A stretch of 64,000 nucleotides of DNA from Candidatus Gastranaerophilales bacterium (lineage in GTDB: Bacteria > Cyanobacteriota > Vampirovibrionia > Gastranaerophilales > Gastranaerophilaceae), in NCBI GenBank assembly GCA_944325835.1, contig CALVBO010000003.1, positions 1 to 64,000 on the forward strand, given 5' to 3'. This document shows, piece after piece, positions 8,117 to 62,951 of this stretch (position 1 is its first letter; each line of letters starts with the position of its first letter). The notes below the pieces were generated by a model. That model was not told where the DNA came from, made no database searches, and was given only the letters and a program-made list of their open reading frames with translations. Both the position numbers and the translations under genes were made by a program.

Positions 8117-8743
8117 ATGTTTTTTCAAAGACGATGCAAAATAACTTTCATAGCCCACGGGGCAACGATATATTCGGACGAATACCGTTTTTCTAACTGC
8201 GAAAATTACCCGCCTCTGACCGAAGCCGGTGAAGAAGAGATAGAAAAAATTTGTCAGTTTTTAATAAAACGTTCGGTTAAAAACGACAAAATTTACTCTT
8301 CCTGCGGAACAAGAGCGGTTGAGAGCGCGGAAATTATCGCAAAAATTTATAAAACAAATGTTGAAATTCTGGACGATTTAAAACCGCGGCTTTGCGGCAA
8401 CTGGAATAACATGACACTTAACCAGCTTATGAAGCAACAACCGGATAATCTGTTAAAACTTATTGAGCATCCGGATGAACGCGTCTGCGAAAATTCCGAA
8501 TCTTTGAAAGAATTTGTAGAGCGCGTAGGCAAAAGTATTGATAAAATTATCAAGGAAAACATGGGTAACCGCATAATCATAGTGACGTATCCTGACGTAA
8601 TTCAGGCGGCAATTATTGCCGCATTGAAACTTCCGGAAGATAAATTATGCAACTTCTTTATCAAAACCGGCAGCGCAACGCAAATCAGCTACTACGAAAC
8701 GTTGAACTCCCTGAAATACTGCGGTTACGTTCCGATTTATTAA
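8117..8743 (+). CDS. Degenerate histidine phosphatase (phosphoglycerate mutase-like) protein
   Basis: A 208-residue protein with the fold of the histidine phosphatase superfamily: FIAHGAT at the N-terminus (normally RHG), SSCGTRAVESAEII (normally SxxxRAxxTA), and IIIVTYPDVIQAAI where active members have VxHG. The phospho-acceptor His14 remains. However, the RHG arginine is Ala13 and the second histidine is replaced near Tyr158. Activity is therefore doubtful, and a binding or regulatory role is possible. Start at ATG 8117 after AGAGGA. It is monocistronic, between a repeat A copy and a small hypothetical gene. Confidence 0.75.
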   Translation: MFFQRRCKITFIAHGATIYSDEYRFSNCENYPPLTEAGEEEIEKICQFLIKRSVKNDKIYSSCGTRAVESAEIIAKIYKTNVEILDDLKPRLCGNWNNMTLNQLMKQQPDNLLKLIEHPDERVCENSESLKEFVERVGKSIDKIIKENMGNRIIIVTYPDVIQAAIIAALKLPEDKLCNFFIKTGSATQISYYETLNSLKYCGYVPIY

Positions 8744-9826: not shown

Positions 9827-10027
9827 ATGGGTAAAATTTCAAAAGATATGAACATAATGGATATCGTTAATCAATGTCCGCAAAGCGTAGAAGTATTCAG
9901 AAAATACGGTTTAGGCTGTATCGGATGCGCAGCAGCACACTTTGAAAACCTTGAAGCAGGCGCAAAAGTTCACGGCTTTGACGCTGACGCTATGGTTGAA
10001 GAAATTAATGCGTTAGCCGGTGTGTAG
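9827..10027 (+). CDS. DUF1858-family small redox-type protein
   Basis: The 66-residue protein matches the DUF1858 pattern: an N-terminal 'MDIVNQCPQSVEVFRKYGLGCIGC' type arrangement, in which a first Cys is followed about 17 residues later by a CIGC pair. It continues FENLEAGAKVHG and a C-terminal helix. Such domains are often linked to hybrid-cluster or other redox proteins; the CxxC suggests a redox disulfide. Start at ATG 9827 after GGAGGG; an ATG at 9812 is less likely. The exact role here is unknown. Confidence 0.8.
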   Translation: MGKISKDMNIMDIVNQCPQSVEVFRKYGLGCIGCAAAHFENLEAGAKVHGFDADAMVEEINALAGV

Positions 10028-10165
10028 CACCGGTGTCGGCACGCGAGAGCGTGACGAACAGGGTGCGAAACATTACGATGCCGCCGTTGCGACCGTAATG
10101 CAATGAAGGGAGCGTACAAATCTGCCAACAGTAAAACTGTTGAGCTAAGATTTGTCAGGCGGGTT
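10028..10165 (+). other. Intergenic stretch with three consecutive hairpins
   Basis: Directly after the DUF1858 stop: CACGC..GCGTG, then CATTACG...CGTAATG, then ACAAATCT...AGATTTGT enclosing AACAGTAAAACTGTT. It may be a structured RNA or a repeat element. No known riboswitch was recognised. Confidence 0.35.
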
Positions 10166-17810: not shown

Positions 17811-18975
17811 ATGAAAAACTTAAAGTCTGAAAACCCTTGTAATATGGACCTGTTAAGCGGGGGGGGGGGGGCAACGCGAAGCAAGTGACTGGACCACGAA
17901 AAACCCATATTGTCACCCTGAACTTGATTCAGGGTCTGGCCAGTGTCGCGGTCTATCGGTAACGCCTGTGAGATTCCGTATCAAGTACGGAATGACATTA
18001 AAGAAGATAACCATGGTTTGTGGTTTTACAATGGCCGAAATCCTGTTATCCCTTACAATCATCGGCGTAGTTGCAGCCATTACGCTTCCGTCACTCACAG
18101 GTAACATCAACGAACGTACTTGGAACACTCAAAGAAAAGCTTTATATGCCAGATTTTCACAGGCAATTGCCCTCATGCCCGCACTCAACGGTTACGGAAC
18201 CCTTACCGAAGGTGATTCTTCCACTTCAGCAGTAGACACCGCTGCCGAAACCTTCGTCACCAACGGGCTCGCTAAAGTATTGAAAATTAACAACATCTGC
18301 GATTCAGAGCACCTTGAAGATTGCGGCATCACATCAAAAATAACACCCCTTTCCGGCGGCAGCGCGATTTCTATACCAACAAAAATATCAGAACTTAATT
18401 CGCTTATGACAAGTGTCGCGACTTGGACAGATGTAAACGGAGTCGTTCATTCGGCAGAAAGTATGATAGATACTAACGCTGCTGCTTTTGAAACTCAAAA
18501 CGGTGAAAGCATTGTAGTATATTACAAACCCGATTGCACAGGGAGTTTAGGAGAAAGCAATTTTCACTACACGCAAAACAAAATATGTGCGAATTTTATT
18601 TATGATTTAAACGGCAGCAAAGGCCCAAACACCGTTGGCAAAGATATAGGCGTAATAACTGCTCTTTATCCGAGTGACAGCATTGTCGTTGCGCCATTCC
18701 CTCTTACCCGCGCCGCCTCAACATCAATCTCATACACTGCGTCCTCAAAAGAATGCACAAAAATAGATAATGAAAGCCGGCTGCCAAATCTGGAAGAATT
18801 AATTTCCATGTTCGTAAATGCAAAACTTTTTGCAATGCCGACAGGTATTTACTGGTCAAGTTCACTGACAACATCAAGCGGTGCAACACAAGCCTGGGCA
18901 ATAGACTTCAATCAAGGCCGCCCCGGAAAATATAATAAAACATCTTCCTGGCGATTATGGTGCGTAAAACGTTAA
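17811..18975 (+). CDS. Prepilin-like protein 1, interrupted by a poly-G tract (phase-variable, OFF as read)
   Basis: The start at ATG 17811 is set by the AAAGGATAGAAT leader shared by all five copies in the window. The frame MKNLKSENPC... enters a run of 13 G (17859-17871) and stops at 17886-17888. Removing one G joins it, without any stop, to the frame containing the prepilin motif GFTMAEILLSLTIIG (Gly/Phe cleavage, Glu at +5, hydrophobic helix), giving 387 residues. The mature part has the invariant family N-terminus and a C-terminal domain with SRLPNLEEL, YWSSSLTT and WCVKR, as in DUF1566/Lcl-type domains. The leader includes a repeat B copy (17911-17997). A pilin or pseudopilin with an exposed variable tip is likely. 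A shorter product from a GTG at 17968 is possible. Followed by a terminator. Confidence 0.75.
17859..17871 (+). repeat. Poly-G tract (13 G), predicted slipped-strand switch
   Basis: Thirteen uninterrupted G in an AT-rich region, 16 codons after the pilin 1 start. Twelve or fifteen G would restore the frame to the pilin. Confidence 0.85.
17911..17997 (+). repeat. Dispersed repeat family B, copy 1 (inside pilin 1 leader)
   Basis: TGTCACCCTGAACTTGATTCAGGGTC ... ATTCCGTATCAAGTACGGAATGACA: two inner palindromes inside a TGTCA...TGACA boundary. Related copies at 22057-22191, 28044-28130 and 56831-56987. Confidence 0.8.
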
Positions 18976-21567: not shown

Positions 21568-21583
21568 ATAACACCTCTTAAAT

Positions 21584-21764
21584 AAAGCAGTTCTCCGTCG
21601 CCTGCTTGCCCTGCTCCCGCAGGTCAACCCGCGACTGCGCTGTCTAATACGCCACTCAAAAGGCTCGGCCACTGAGTGGCTCCTCCATTTGGTTCATACA
21701 CTCTCGGTAGCGATTGATACCACTATGGCTCCGGCTCAGCCGGGCGCGAGCCTTTCTCGGACAT
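21584..21764 (+). repeat. Dispersed repeat family A, full-length copy 4
   Basis: The 181-bp reference copy: AAAGCAGTTCTCCGTCGCC ... CTGTCTAATACGCCACTC ... GGCCACTGAGTGGCTCC ... GGCTCCGGCTCAGCC ... CGAGCCTTTCTCGGACAT. Rich in short palindromes; no open reading frame. Confidence 0.88.
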
Positions 21765-21873
21765 TATTGTATTCTGTTTGGGGTGTTAAATATATATTTA
21801 ATTTTATAATATATAATGTATTTACTTTTTGAATACAATGCGGTATACTTATACTATAGAAAGGATAGAAATT

Positions 21874-23163
21874 ATGAAACATACTGCATTTACAATGGCA
21901 GGCGCGGGTCAACGCGCTTCCTTAACGGATTTACACACTTACGGTTGCGCCGCTTTTACCATGGCGGACCGGCTGAGCCGCTCGACTGAGTCAGTCGCTG
22001 AGCGACTTCCACAAGTGAACCCGTACGAGAATACAACGGAAAAATCTACAGAGCACTGTCACCCTAAACTGCACGAGCGAGCTGCGGCAGAAATCCGCAA
22101 CGCCTGTCATGCTGAACTTGATTCAGCATCTATCCAGTGTTGCGAACTACCGGTAACGTTGGACAGATTCCGAAACAAGTTCGGAATGACACCGACTGAG
22201 TCGAAAGCCATAAAGGGTTTATGTGCTTACGGGCGACGAATGGCGTTTACCATGGCAGAAATACTTCTGTCATTGACGATAATCGGCGTGGTCGCAGCTA
22301 TAACATTACCGAGCTTGACAGGAAATATTAACGAACGCACATGGAATACGCAACGCAAAGCGCTTTACGCCAGATTTTCTCAAGCAATTGCGCTAATGCC
22401 GGCACTCAATGGGTACGGAACTTTAAAAGAAGAAAGTTCCTCCGGTGCAGGCGATGCCGTTGACACTGCCGCCGAAACCTTTGTAACAAATGGCCTCGCC
22501 AAAGTTCTTAAAATTAACAATATTTGTGATAACGAACATCTCGAAGATTGCGGTCTACCAGAAACCATTACTCCCCTTAATGCCGAAAGTATAATCAAGT
22601 TGAACGAAATTTCTTCTTTAAGGGGTTTTAATAGCCTATTCACTTCTGAAGCAGGAATACCATTAGATATCAAGGCTGCAGCTTTTGAAACCCAAAATGG
22701 TGAAAGTATACTGGTTTACTATAATCCGAACTGTGTTTCATATCTCAACGAAACTGGAGATTATTATACACAACCCAAAATGTGCGCTAATTTTGTTTAT
22801 GATTTAAACGGTAATAAGGGCCCAAACACTGTAGGCAAAGATATTGGTTTTATCAGCGCACTCTATCCAGCAGATCCGACAGTAGTAGCGCCAATGCCAC
22901 TTACAAGTAATGTAACCGGAACGCACACTCAAACTGATGCGGGTAAAGCTTGTAAACAACAAGATTCTGAAAGCAGACTACCAAATCGTGATGAGCTTAC
23001 TGCTATGTTTTATAATAATAAATTACTTGGTATTACAAGCGGAGCATTCTGGTCAAGTACAGTTGCAACATCTAACGAAGCGTGGAAAGTATACTTTCTA
23101 AATGGCAAATATTATACAATAGTAAAAACACACTCAGATTATGTAAGATGTGTTAAACGCTAA
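21874..23163 (+). CDS. Prepilin-like protein 2 with repeat-derived leader insertion
   Basis: The ATG at 21874 follows GAAAGGATAGAAATT, the family leader. The start MKHTAFTMAG looks like a complete pilin beginning, but the true motif AFTMAEILLSLTIIG appears only at residue ~123. Between them lie a second AFTMA and a repeat B copy, all in frame. The mature part has the invariant family N-terminus, then a unique middle and a DUF1566/Lcl-like C-terminus (SRLPNRDEL, FWSSTV, VRCVKR). The protein is 429 residues; with cleavage before FTMAE the mature form would be ~306. A leader of >100 residues is abnormal for prepilin peptidase, so processing or alternative starts are open questions. No poly-G run here. 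Followed by a hairpin terminator. Confidence 0.8.
   Translation: MKHTAFTMAGAGQRASLTDLHTYGCAAFTMADRLSRSTESVAERLPQVNPYENTTEKSTEHCHPKLHERAAAEIRNACHAELDSASIQCCELPVTLDRFRNKFGMTPTESKAIKGLCAYGRRMAFTMAEILLSLTIIGVVAAITLPSLTGNINERTWNTQRKALYARFSQAIALMPALNGYGTLKEESSSGAGDAVDTAAETFVTNGLAKVLKINNICDNEHLEDCGLPETITPLNAESIIKLNEISSLRGFNSLFTSEAGIPLDIKAAAFETQNGESILVYYNPNCVSYLNETGDYYTQPKMCANFVYDLNGNKGPNTVGKDIGFISALYPADPTVVAPMPLTSNVTGTHTQTDAGKACKQQDSESRLPNRDELTAMFYNNKLLGITSGAFWSSTVATSNEAWKVYFLNGKYYTIVKTHSDYVRCVKR
22057..22191 (+). repeat. Dispersed repeat family B, copy 2 (inside pilin 2)
   Basis: Starts TGTCACCC, contains TGTCATGCTGAACTTGATTCAGCAT, and ends TTCCGAAACAAGTTCGGAATGACA. It is read through in frame within the pilin 2 leader. 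Confidence 0.8.
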
Positions 23164-26748: not shown

Positions 26749-28213
26749 CTAATCGCGTTTAACACAACGAATTGGCCCGACAGCATCCCGCTCTGCACGA
26801 TACAACCTTGCTCCGGAGAGCATAGATTGCATCCAACCGACAGTTCTGCCGCTTGCGTCAATTGCAGTTCCGGAAGTCCAGTACCACGTACTGCTTGTCG
26901 CCAAATTCCCGATAATATTTTTATTAACAAACAGAGCAGCTGCTTCATCTTTGTTCGGCAAGCGATACTGGCTGTCCTGCTGCGTACAAACCTCTGCAGC
27001 GCTGAGTGTTCCGTCAGAAGAAGGCTTTTGAGGAGCCGACGCAGAATCTCTTGCGTAAGCCAGCGGAGCAACGACAACGCTATCAGTCGGATAAAATACA
27101 GAAATCGTTCCAATATCTTTTCCGTAAGTATTAGGCCCTTTTTTACCGTTTAAATCATATATAAAGTTTGCACATAACCTTACCTGTGTTGCATCCCAGG
27201 CAATATTTGATTTCAAATCCGGCTGGCAAAGCGGATTATAATAAACCGCAATGCTTTCACCATTGGCTGTTTCAAACGCGGCGGCTTTTGTATCATATTG
27301 ATTATAAGAATACGTAACACCGCAATATGCCATGCCGGAAATATCTACAAGCTGGGAATTCAACTTTTTAAAAGTATTCGGGAACGAATCCAGAGTGCTT
27401 CCGGCAAGCGTGGTAATTTTATCAGGCAGGCCGCAATCAGATAATTTGTCATAAGAGCAAATATTATTTATTTTCAGAACTTTTGAAAGTCCTGCCGTAA
27501 CAAAGGTTTCAGCAACGGTATCCGTTACCGATGCGGAACCGGCAGAATCCGTGTCTTCTGAATAAGTTCCGTAACCGTTAATTGCGGGCATCAGGGCAAT
27601 TGCCTGTGAAAATCTTGCATAAAGCGCTTTTCGTTGCGTGTTCCATGTGCGCTCGTTGATGTTGCCGGTAAGGCTTGGTAATGTAATCGCTGCAACAACG
27701 CCTATAATTGTGAGGGATAACAATATTTCTGCCATGGTAAAGGCCAAGCCGAGCAGAGCCACGGAACAAGGCTTGCCTTGTGTAGAGTCGAGCGCGCGAC
27801 GCGGCGTGCCTGAGGCACTTCCCCGATACGTTGGTAGGTTTTGTCGTAACGTTATAAGACCGGCTTTGCCGGCGCGCTCTTTCGCGCAAGCGCGAGCGGT
27901 GGCGTTTGCGTGAGCGAGCGGAGTGCGGAGTGCTGAAAGCACGTAGGCACGTTTTCCGCGAGGCGAACAAGAAAACGCGAGGCGCAGTACCAACGTTGAC
28001 TTGATTGCCACGCGGTCTACGACCGCTCGCAATGACGAAATTTTGTCACCCTGAACTTGATTCAGGGTCTGACCTGCATTACGTGCTACCGGTATCGTTG
28101 GACAGATCCCGAAATAAATTCGGGATGACATATCGGGTACAGATTGCGCACTATTCCCTGTTAAGAGAGGCCCCCCCCCCCCCTGCATAAATAATTACAC
28201 TTCGTTTTTTCAT
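26749..28213 (-). CDS. Prepilin-like protein 3, interrupted by a poly-G tract (phase-variable, OFF as read)
   Basis: The ATG at 28213 lies behind GGAAAGGATAGAAGAATTT, the family leader. Its frame (MKKRSVIIYA) meets 13 G (reverse strand of 28171-28183) and stops soon after. With 12 G it would continue in frame to the stop at 26749, giving 487 residues. About 160 residues of repeat-derived leader (repeats B and C plus GC-rich sequence) precede AFTMAEILLSLTIIG. The mature part has the invariant N-terminus, AAAFETANGES, YDLNGKKGPNT and a DUF1566/Lcl-like end (YRLPNKDEA, WYWTSG, IRCVKRD). As read, only an internal ATG at 28188 directly before the G run could initiate the pilin frame, and it has no ribosome-binding site. 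Confidence 0.75.
28003..28037 (-). repeat. Dispersed repeat family C, copy 2 (inside pilin 3)
   Basis: Reverse-oriented TCATTGCGAGCGGTCGTAGACCGCGTGGCAAT; a relative lies at 13249-13287. Confidence 0.7.
28044..28130 (-). repeat. Dispersed repeat family B, copy 3 (inside pilin 3)
   Basis: TGTCACCCTGAACTTGATTC ... CGGGATGACA, the same two-palindrome structure as the copy in pilin 1, read in frame in the opposite orientation. Confidence 0.8.
28171..28183 (-). repeat. Poly-G tract of pilin 3 (13 C on + strand)
   Basis: Thirteen G on the coding strand, ten codons after the pilin 3 start. The length and the one-base frame offset are identical to those of pilin 1. Confidence 0.85.
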
Positions 28214-52881: not shown

Positions 52882-53832
52882 ATGAACCATGCTTTTACTA
52901 TGGCAGAGATATTATTATCTCTCACTATTATTGGTGTCGTTGCGGCTATCACTTTGCCGTCGCTTACAGGTAACATTAACGAGCGAACCTGGAACACACA
53001 AAGAAAAGCTCTTTATGCAAGGATGTCGCAGGCTATCGCTCTCATGCCTTCCCTCAACGGATATGGAACCTTGACCGAGGAAAGTTCCTCGGGGGCAGGT
53101 GACGCCGTCGACACCGCCGCTGAAACCTTCGTAACAGCAGGGCTTGCCAAAGTCATGAAAATCAACAATATCTGCGACTCCGAACACCTTGAAGATTGCG
53201 GAATTGCGTCTAAATTCACGACTTTAAAAGCCACCGTCATGTCAACCCCGACTAAAATGTCCGAGCTTAATTCTGATATGGTGTCTACTGATAAAATTGA
53301 TGCAATTACCAGCTGGCATCTTAAACACGATCAGCTGGACACTAAAGCTGCTGCTTTTGAAACCGGTAATGGAGAAAGTATCATTGTTTACTACAATCCG
53401 AAATGTATTTCTGATTTTGACACCTCAGGCACCAGTATGATACAACCTAAAATTTGTGCGAATTTAATTTACGATTTGAACGGAACCAAAGGCCCTAATT
53501 CTATCGGTAAAGATATGGGGTTTATCACGATTTTGTATTCTACTGACTCATCTGTTGTAATGCCGTTACCGCATCTGTATGACGCCGGAAGGGCATCACA
53601 ACCCGATGCGTCCGCGCTCTGTACACAGCAGGATAAAGAATACAGGCTGCCAAACCGTGATGAGCTTGCGGCTCTTTTTGCTAACAAAAATCTATTAAAT
53701 ATTAGCACTGGGCGCTATTGGTCTTCTTCGGTCATTGATAAAAACTCTGCTTATATTATTGGCATTGAAGCCGGTGACAGAACTCATGGTATTAGGACTG
53801 AAACAAGACCAATACGCTGCGTTAAACGATAA
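52882..53832 (+). CDS. Prepilin-like protein 4 (uninterrupted copy)
   Basis: The 316-residue copy without insertion: a four-residue leader (MNHA) directly before FTMAEILLSLTIIG, so it defines the native gene start. ATG 52882 follows AGAAAGGATAGAATT. The N-terminal ~60 residues are nearly identical to the other copies, while codons differ. The C-terminus is DUF1566/Lcl-like (YRLPNRDEL, RYWSSS, IRCVKR). Prepilin peptidase would cut after Ala rather than the usual Gly. It is exported and assembled in or by a type IV-pilus-like machine; no assembly genes are in the window. A divergent XRE gene may control it. Confidence 0.88.
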   Translation: MNHAFTMAEILLSLTIIGVVAAITLPSLTGNINERTWNTQRKALYARMSQAIALMPSLNGYGTLTEESSSGAGDAVDTAAETFVTAGLAKVMKINNICDSEHLEDCGIASKFTTLKATVMSTPTKMSELNSDMVSTDKIDAITSWHLKHDQLDTKAAAFETGNGESIIVYYNPKCISDFDTSGTSMIQPKICANLIYDLNGTKGPNSIGKDMGFITILYSTDSSVVMPLPHLYDAGRASQPDASALCTQQDKEYRLPNRDELAALFANKNLLNISTGRYWSSSVIDKNSAYIIGIEAGDRTHGIRTETRPIRCVKR

Positions 53833-56599: not shown

Positions 56600-56827
56600 A
56601 TGAAAGATATAAAAAAATACAAACAACAACTACAACTAATTGGCAAAAATCTTAAAAAGTTTCGTATAGCAAAAGGCTTAACACAAAAACAAGTTGCCGC
56701 CGCAGTAGGAGTTTCAGTGAACTATATCAGTAAAATTGAAAATGGTAACGTGCTATTCTCAATTAATCTGTTATGCAAATTTTGTGTTTTATTTAAAGTA
56801 CAACCTAAAGAACTATTTGAGGATTAA
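56600..56827 (+). CDS. XRE-family small regulator (75 aa)
   Basis: A single HTH_3 domain: GKNLKKFRIAKGLTQKQVAAAVGVSVNYISKIENG, then VLFKVQPKELFED. The ATG at 56600 is chosen because TATAAT lies 9 nt upstream and no SD is present (leaderless type). A repeat B copy begins 4 bp after its stop. Confidence 0.82.
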   Translation: MKDIKKYKQQLQLIGKNLKKFRIAKGLTQKQVAAAVGVSVNYISKIENGNVLFSINLLCKFCVLFKVQPKELFED

Positions 56828-56830
56828 TTA

Positions 56831-56987
56831 TGTCATCCCGAACTGCGCGAGCGAGCGAAGGCACAAAGCGAAAACGATGTTTTCGCGGTGCCGTTTTTCG
56901 CGAGTCGAGCAAGACCGTTTCGGGATCTGTCCAACAACACCGACAGCACGCAACATCGGACAGATGCTGAAACAAGTTCAGCATGAC
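56831..56987 (+). repeat. Dispersed repeat family B, copy 4 (intergenic)
   Basis: TGTCATCCCGAACTGCGCGAG ... TTTCGGGATCTGTCCAACAACACCG ... GCTGAAACAAGTTCAGCATGACA. It has outer TGTCA/TGACA and internal palindromes, as in the copies inside pilins 1-3, with an extra GCGAAAACGATGTTTTCGCGG hairpin. Confidence 0.8.
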
Positions 56988-57052
56988 ATCACTGCTATAA
57001 TATCTATTATTAACAATATGACAACATAATAAAAACGTGTTAGTATGACTCT

Positions 57053-61883: not shown

Positions 61884-62951
61884 ATGAAACAATTCAATGC
61901 ATTTGTAACGGCGGGTGCCGGGCTGGGAGCACCTCTGAATGGCCAGCGAACTAAAGGCCGCGCCTTCACAATGGCAGAGATATTATTATCTCTAACAATT
62001 ATCGGCGTAGTTGCAGCAATAACGCTTCCATCGTTAACCGGTAACATTAACGAAAGGACATGGAATACGCAAAGAAAAGCTTTATATGCAAGGCTTTCAC
62101 AAGCAATACCGTTAATGGATTCCCTGAATGGATACGGTACTTTTACCGAAGCTTCCGGAACGGAAGGAACAAGCTCATACACAGCAGGAGCCGATAATGT
62201 TGCAGAAACATTTATTAATGCTGCACTCAGTAAAGTTATGAAAGTTAATGCCGTTTGCAGCGGCGATATTGACGATCTGGCAGATTGCGGCGTTGCGTCC
62301 TCGATAGTCAACCTTGCCGGCACAAAGGTTGACATGCCGGTTAAACTTTCCGAACTCAACCCGTTGAATATAACATCACCTCCGGAACTGGCTGTCGGAA
62401 CCTCATACTCTTTGTATGATACAAAAGCTGCATCGTTCGTTGCACAGGGCGGTGAAACTGTTACTGTTTTCTACAACCCGCGCTGCAGAGGCTCACTTAA
62501 TGAAGTTGTTCAGGCAAACTTTCCTAATATGATGTGTGTCAACTTTGTTTATGATCTTAACGGTAACAAAGGACCGAACACTGTCGGAAAGGATATGGGC
62601 TTTATAACAGCTTTTTATCCTTATGATGTTAAAGTTGTTGCACCATACCCGTACATCAGAGATTTAAGCCAAAAATACGCACAAAAAGACGCAGCATCCG
62701 CTTGTACTAAAGAGGATAGTGAATATAGACTTGCCAATGTTGAAGAAATGGCATCAATGTTTACGAACCTGAAACTGGTTTCTGACAATGAAACGCTCGA
62801 CAACAGAGGCGGGAATTCGGTTTACTGGACGTCATCCCTAACCACGTATAATAATGCAAAACGTGCATGGTACTTCTATTTCGGTGCAGGATACGCAAAT
62901 GTTTGGCGTTCTTTGACAGAACCGATGAGCATCAGATGTGTTAAACGATAA
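61884..62951 (+). CDS. Prepilin-like protein 5
   Basis: A 355-residue copy. ATG 61884 follows GAAAGGGTAGATAAATT. The leader MKQFNAFVTAGAG...GR contains ~30 residues before AFTMAEILLSLTIIG, apparently a short insertion after an original AF-T-A start. The N-terminus is as in the family but with a LSQAIPLM variant. The C-terminus is DUF1566/Lcl-like (YRLANVEEM, VYWTSSLTT, IRCVKR). It has a very good promoter with XRE operator, and is followed by TATCCTTTCT (62984-62993) and a terminator. Confidence 0.85.
   Translation: MKQFNAFVTAGAGLGAPLNGQRTKGRAFTMAEILLSLTIIGVVAAITLPSLTGNINERTWNTQRKALYARLSQAIPLMDSLNGYGTFTEASGTEGTSSYTAGADNVAETFINAALSKVMKVNAVCSGDIDDLADCGVASSIVNLAGTKVDMPVKLSELNPLNITSPPELAVGTSYSLYDTKAASFVAQGGETVTVFYNPRCRGSLNEVVQANFPNMMCVNFVYDLNGNKGPNTVGKDMGFITAFYPYDVKVVAPYPYIRDLSQKYAQKDAASACTKEDSEYRLANVEEMASMFTNLKLVSDNETLDNRGGNSVYWTSSLTTYNNAKRAWYFYFGAGYANVWRSLTEPMSIRCVKR

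Follow-up and report, generated by a model that had tools for sequence, protein, structure and literature searches.

A prepilin-like family with poly-G tracts and long open leaders, probably phase-variable, in Candidatus Gastranaerophilus

Introduction

How does a pilin gene come to carry its prepilin motif three times, with 124 codons between its start codon and the copy that opens the predicted mature protein? The question is raised by a gene that we call pilin 2, found in a window of 64,000 nucleotides at the start of contig CALVBO010000003.1; the window's genome (G000, Candidatus Gastranaerophilus) comprises 1.95 Mb in 44 contigs. The original prediction, made from the window alone, was of a repeat-derived insertion flanked by duplicated target sequence, at a point where repeats enter this gene family and stay in frame. 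By comparing pilin 2 with its paralogs and with related genomes we arrive at a different account, that of a phase-variable, leader-tolerant pilin family, and give this model as a whole a probability of about 0.85.

Results

Anatomy of pilin 2

The gene and its leader are made up as follows.

21874-23163, + strand: pilin 2, a prepilin/C-type-lectin paralog whose ATG at 21874 reads MKHT-A
21764-21873, + strand: promoter and ribosome-binding-site (RBS) region, with GAAAGGATAGAAATT preceding the ATG
21874-22245, + strand: leader, 124 codons (372 nt), in frame, without poly-G
21889-21900, + strand: FTMA junction copy 1, TTTACAATGGCA, after MKHTA
21955-21966, + strand: FTMA junction copy 2, TTTACCATGGCG, followed by a DRLSR module
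about 22105-22191, unstranded: dispersed palindromic repeat ('repeat B'), 83% identical over 72 nt to the intergenic repeat at 56917-56988
22201-22245, + strand: tail module SKAIKGLCAYGRRMA, of a tail family common to 10 copies (cluster 0)
22246-23163, + strand: mature prepilin core, A-FTMAE (AFTMAEILLSL), with an N-terminal helix and a C-type-lectin (Lcl_C) end

The range first singled out, 21874-22270, does run from the start codon to the start of the core, and AFTMA does occur three times before AEILLSL, with the FTMA copies at 21889, 21955 and 22246 in a single open frame. The third copy (TTTACCATGGCAGAA) marks the real core and the predicted prepilin cleavage site. The repeat B copy is also where it had been seen, and the segments preceding copies 2 and 3, described as imperfect direct repeats, are members of a single tail family (ASLTDLHTYGCA / AIKGLCAYGRRMA; GGATTTACACACTTACGG / GGGTTTATGTGCTTACGG), with which the leaders of 10 copies in G000 end. 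The leader of pilin 2 thus consists of two rounds of stacking and one dispersed repeat. A copy in genome G004 (L150), in which MKNAFTMAGAGQGALLKGLHACGHA abuts FTMAE, shows the first round only, at another locus; the start of its leader is similar but its neighbours differ from those of pilin 2, and we take it for a paralog or a moved copy rather than an ortholog.

The window holds four further pilins and several copies of the repeats.

17811-18975, + strand: pilin 1; ATG 17811, G13 at 17859-17871, leader 153 nt, core 18025; start out of frame by one base
26752-28213, - strand: pilin 3; ATG 28213, G13 at 28171-28183, leader 429 nt, core start 27741; start out of frame by one base
52882-53832, + strand: pilin 4; without poly-G, uninterrupted MNHA-FTMAE, core 52894, in frame
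61884-62951, + strand: pilin 5; without poly-G, 27-codon leader, in frame
10013-10163, unstranded: leader-repeat copy between predicted genes, in a gap in the gene predictions
21580-21763, unstranded: dispersed repeat upstream of pilin 2, about 185 bp, in G000 only (alignment with L252); the site is empty in the sister species G002
56823-56992, unstranded: intergenic copy (TGTCAT...ATGACA) of the dispersed repeat also found in leaders

Pilin 4 has the uninterrupted form expected of it. Pilin 2 is among the minority of copies without poly-G and is in frame by itself; the poly-G run that it lacks, and that is typical of most of its relatives, does not figure in the original prediction. Genome G002 is 92-96% identical to the window's locus and syntenic with it. 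Pilin 2 is missing there: its promoter and RBS region is mostly preserved despite the loss of the gene, and a dispersed repeat, a relative of the one at 21580-21763, occupies the gene's place.

The prepilin-like family

A search of G000 with the pilin 2 core returned about 100 matches, nearly all starting exactly at FTMAE. Of the 97 copies collected, 92 have intact cores and a few are more remote prepilins, related at the N-terminus, and we count about 95 prepilin/C-type-lectin paralogs in this genome. Since many contigs start or end at a pilin copy (starts of C1, C9, C14, C18, C34 and C40), the genome may hold more copies than this. Similarity among most of the cores is 50-70%. Five other members of the genus have at least 59 copies each and a sixth has 6, while 32 genomes of other genera gave no match at E 1e-20; within the sample searched, the family occurs in a single genus, Candidatus Gastranaerophilus. 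The JAMPIJ01 contigs (G003), recorded as Fusobacterium sp. yet carrying this family, are probably mislabelled. In two loci probably from other genera, L125 and L139, the start codon of another prepilin family (FTLAEVLITLGIIG) is followed by a poly-G run.

A prepilin peptidase site requires A or G at position -1, and this is the residue before FTMAE in 91 of 91 copies with readable upstream sequence. Together with F at +1, E at +5 and a hydrophobic N-terminal helix (3-50 in the model), it gives the family the features of type IV prepilins; since the scores against Pfam N_methyl (9.7 and 15.7 bits) lie below the cut-off of 21.2, we term it prepilin-like. The C-terminus is an Lcl_C domain whose score falls just under the Pfam cut-off. 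In the predicted structure (pLDDT 87.5), a helix of 48 residues stands at the N-terminus and a C-type-lectin domain at the other end, and the best solved-structure match of the C-terminus is the C-terminal lectin domain of Legionella Lcl (E 5.5e-07). G000 has a prepilin peptidase, as one PF01478 match.

Origin of the FTMA duplications

Upstream of the core, FTMA or a close variant occurs 15 times in 6,908 leader residues of G000 and 22 times in 7,415 of G002, in excess of chance, for which our own estimate is about 0.04 for the exact 4-mer. Modules that duplicate FTMA, of 20, 27 or 28 codons, are found at one junction in 28 distinct cases, usually laid out as a tail ending in A or G, then TTYACNATGGCNG, CCCGGCTGAGCCG and, further on, A-FTMAE. 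The filled and empty sites that the original prediction recommended looking for do exist, as many of the left tails also abut the core directly in another copy, several of them with 24 of 24 bases alike.

One explanation is that a mobile repeat inserts specifically at the FTMA junction, duplicates a target of about 13 bp and is kept if in frame. The left and right junctions shared by most of the 28 cases, the three fixed module sizes, the one gene with two modules in tandem and the tails with empty relatives are all consistent with this. The duplicated target, however, is not supported: the left and right copies of FTMA share synonymous bases no more often than random pairs do (0.36 versus 0.37, p 0.69), where site-specific insertion calls for two like flanking copies. 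The dispersed repeat, moreover, ends anywhere from 19 nt to several hundred nt upstream of the core, which rules out insertion at one fixed distance, and with its intergenic copies this refutes its targeting to the FTMA junction. Across the pilin loci and the window read here, it lies both in frame inside genes and between genes, as expected of an element of the Rickettsia palindromic type. Of the predicted insertion at a single point there remains the fact that only the zone between start and prepilin motif grows, with modules at one junction.

The comparison of G000 with G002, at 55 orthologous loci, points elsewhere. At 16 of these the coding region has been replaced by that of another paralog, with the downstream flank still about 90-99% identical; of the nine replaced loci where the opposite side could be examined, four have kept the start segment as well. 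Conversely, of 23 loci that share their core, 10 differ in promoter and start segment. Pilin 1 is one example, its core being 93% identical in G002 while promoter, start and leader are unrelated and the poly-G is absent there. This pattern indicates that paralogs exchange 5' ends and coding regions. The arrangement is not that of pilE/pilS silent cassettes, with promoterless partial donors and one expression locus, given that an RBS and start could be recognised for 60 of the 97 copies. Because the FTMA copies are no more alike than random pairs and cores are exchanged among paralogs, we favour recombination between paralogs, which explains the duplications at least as well as target-site duplication; later gene conversion could have erased the duplication left by an old insertion. 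Targeted insertion is, in our judgement, unlikely.

A poly-G run ahead of an open leader

In G000, the recognised RBS and start (GAAAGGATAGA...ATG) lie 12-740 nt upstream. A poly-G run stands between start and core in 62 copies, at a distance of 27-55 nt from the start codon; it is mostly G12-G14, and G11-G15 in 58 of the 62. Copies that have a recognised RBS and start and no poly-G are in frame. From the run to the core there follow 15-696 nt of repeats and stacked modules, then A or G and FTMAE; leaders of more than 100 residues, as had been foreseen, occur in 20 of the 62. Upstream of the core, its frame runs without a stop as far as the poly-G in 60 of these copies, although the modules share descent and the 60 are not independent events, against one and none for the other two frames; the prefixes from start to poly-G are open in 51 of 54. 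Among the tracts of at least 11 G listed for G000, 34 are distinct and all but one lie in the pilin family. On the minus strand of L293 (G000:C3 near 90.9 kb), a G13 lies inside a different gene, presumably a DUF115/maf-like glycosylation gene, and is possibly another switch. The poly-G arrangement also occurs in G001, G002, G003, G004 and G006. Many G004 and G003 copies have a leader of only 12-30 nt after the run, which we take to be the simple form.

Both G000 and G002 have poly-G at 30 of the 55 orthologous loci. At 20 of these 30 the number of Gs is not the same, a figure taken from metagenome assemblies, in which short-read poly-G counts are unreliable and Illumina artefacts at G-tracts have been described (PMC9187656). 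Leader length differs at 26 of the shared loci, by a multiple of three at 23, which upholds the view that leaders remain in frame. Phase, determined for 26 pairs, differs in 13, with a change between ON and OFF in 9. The family thus shows the marks of contingency loci: a tract in the coding region, a frame open on both sides of it and a tract length that varies between genomes. Substitutions fall evenly on the three codon positions of the leader (10/11/8, n=29 only) and mainly on the third in the core (112/91/402), suggesting that the leader is kept open while its amino acids are apparently free.

The state of the predicted switch is unevenly distributed. Starts are in frame in only 10 of 54 poly-G copies in G000 and 11 of 56 in G002, and the +1 state, with one G too many, prevails (82/110), which is at odds with simple random switching. 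This excess may reflect a population state, selection, slippage during expression or assembly bias; short peptides made in the +1 state do not explain it, the +2 frame stopping early as well (medians 2.5 versus 8.5 codons in G000, 6 versus 5 in G002). It raises the possibility that the poly-G is a recoding site, where transcriptional slippage would let +1 genes make their product and the +1 state would be functional. In G000 and G002 the G-count indeed tracks prefix length such that +1 prevails (chi-square 79.9, p 1.8e-16), and every copy of a second prefix type (prefix 49-55) is +1. Yet in G003, where 22 of 22 leaders are open, 13 copies are ON, 6 are +1 and 3 are +2; phases differ between orthologs, and assembly bias may play a part. 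We consider such recoding decidedly improbable.

The out-of-frame starts of G000 and G002 could also be taken to mean that the leader is untranslated and decaying, that the copies are for the most part pseudogenes or silent cassettes and that the poly-G is a mutational by-product. Such decay is very hard to reconcile with leaders open in the core frame only, length changes that preserve the frame between orthologs, cores with a strong third-position bias, the retention of each copy's own RBS and start, and the mostly in-frame copies of G003; we reject the long leaders as untranslated DNA on this frame evidence.

A retroelement with one target

At L032 7874-9915 (G000:C9), an Avd-like gene, a template repeat (TR, 8515-8652) and a reverse transcriptase (RT) gene adjoin one pilin copy, and 10 of the 11 differences between this copy and the TR fall at TR adenines, in what looks like a working diversity-generating retroelement (DGR) with one pilin target. 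A 3' end derived from the TR was sought in pilin 2 and the other copies and found in none but the copy adjoining the RT, so that the DGR as the source of the whole family's diversity, with the leader irrelevant, can be set aside as exceedingly improbable.

Discussion

Our analysis suggests an answer to the question posed by pilin 2 that draws on the family as a whole. An open core frame, differing G-counts and length changes that keep the frame indicate that the poly-G probably acts as a switch through slippage, and that the leader is probably a translated zone, free in its amino acids, which prepilin peptidase would remove. We propose that most copies are simple-sequence contingency loci in which replication slippage in the poly-G would alter the number of Gs, one count in three joining the start to the pilin frame. 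The leader between poly-G and core, of 4 to over 230 codons assembled from dispersed repeats and tail modules, would then be translated, and prepilin peptidase should remove it at the A or G before FTMAE. Because it should be cut off, its sequence would hardly matter as long as the frame is open, and inserts and recombination products could accumulate there; the FTMA duplications would be scars of this stacking. Beyond the anatomy, frame conservation, between-species length variation and gene replacement observed here, we infer slippage in living populations, cleavage of the long leaders, surface display and a use in evading immunity or phage.

The leader might further be a dedicated exchange zone, in which shared modules give upstream homology, poly-G switches and coding cassettes move independently of each other between the roughly 95 loci, and the +1 state is read at a low level by slippage. 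We offer this as a speculative extension that is more likely wrong than right by some way; if true, it would be a combinatorial surface-variation system in a commensal, larger than any bacterial example known to us.

On the phase-variable, leader-tolerant model, the bacterium would apparently have a very large repertoire of lectin-tipped proteins to show on its surface. Dozens of predicted switches would stem from one lectin-tipped prepilin family in uncultured gut relatives of cyanobacteria, and would coexist with recombination between genes and a retroelement mutating one member. Direct tests become possible of which copies a single host carries in the ON state, of whether host antibodies or phages select among them, and of the greatest leader length that prepilin peptidase can still cut off. 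Gene callers will misplace the starts of these genes or call them pseudogenes. Our literature search found no earlier description of a switchable Gastranaerophilus prepilin family, and no paper linking Gastranaerophilus bacteria with phase variation or DGRs.

Pathogens are known to switch by poly-G, usually at tens of loci in genes of different kinds, and so are a few gut commensals. Among known systems, the opa genes of Neisseria, with CTCTT repeats in the signal-peptide region, resemble this family, as we interpret it, in being multicopy surface proteins with a repeat tract near the start, in a leader that is removed, with frame-dependent ON and OFF states and recombination between copies. 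We know of no long stacked leaders in opa. The two differ in copy number, 4-12 for opa (PMC5953494) against about 95 here, in the tract, which is poly-G rather than a pentamer, and in the leader, which is that of a prepilin rather than a Sec signal. Genome-wide poly-G contingency loci recall the phasomes of Campylobacter and Neisseria; a pathogenic Neisseria genome has about 15-19 such tracts, distributed over genes of various kinds (PMC5953494), whereas 62 lie in one family here. With pilE/pilS the family shares type IV pilins and segmental replacement between copies, and differs in that the majority of copies retain an RBS and start of their own and no single expression site was identified. 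Rickettsia palindromic elements are likewise dispersed palindromic repeats in frame inside genes; in the pilin loci and window read here, the dispersed repeats lie in one family's removable leader and between genes. Further papers for comparison are PMC6321876 and PMC5877343. The gut commensal Bifidobacterium breve also has a G-tract in a pilin gene, a run of G11-G12 that separates the signal from the rest of the first pilin gene of a sortase pilus cluster (PMC9187656); there the pili are of the sortase type, with two pilus clusters in the strain (PMC9187656), where Candidatus Gastranaerophilus has dozens of loci.
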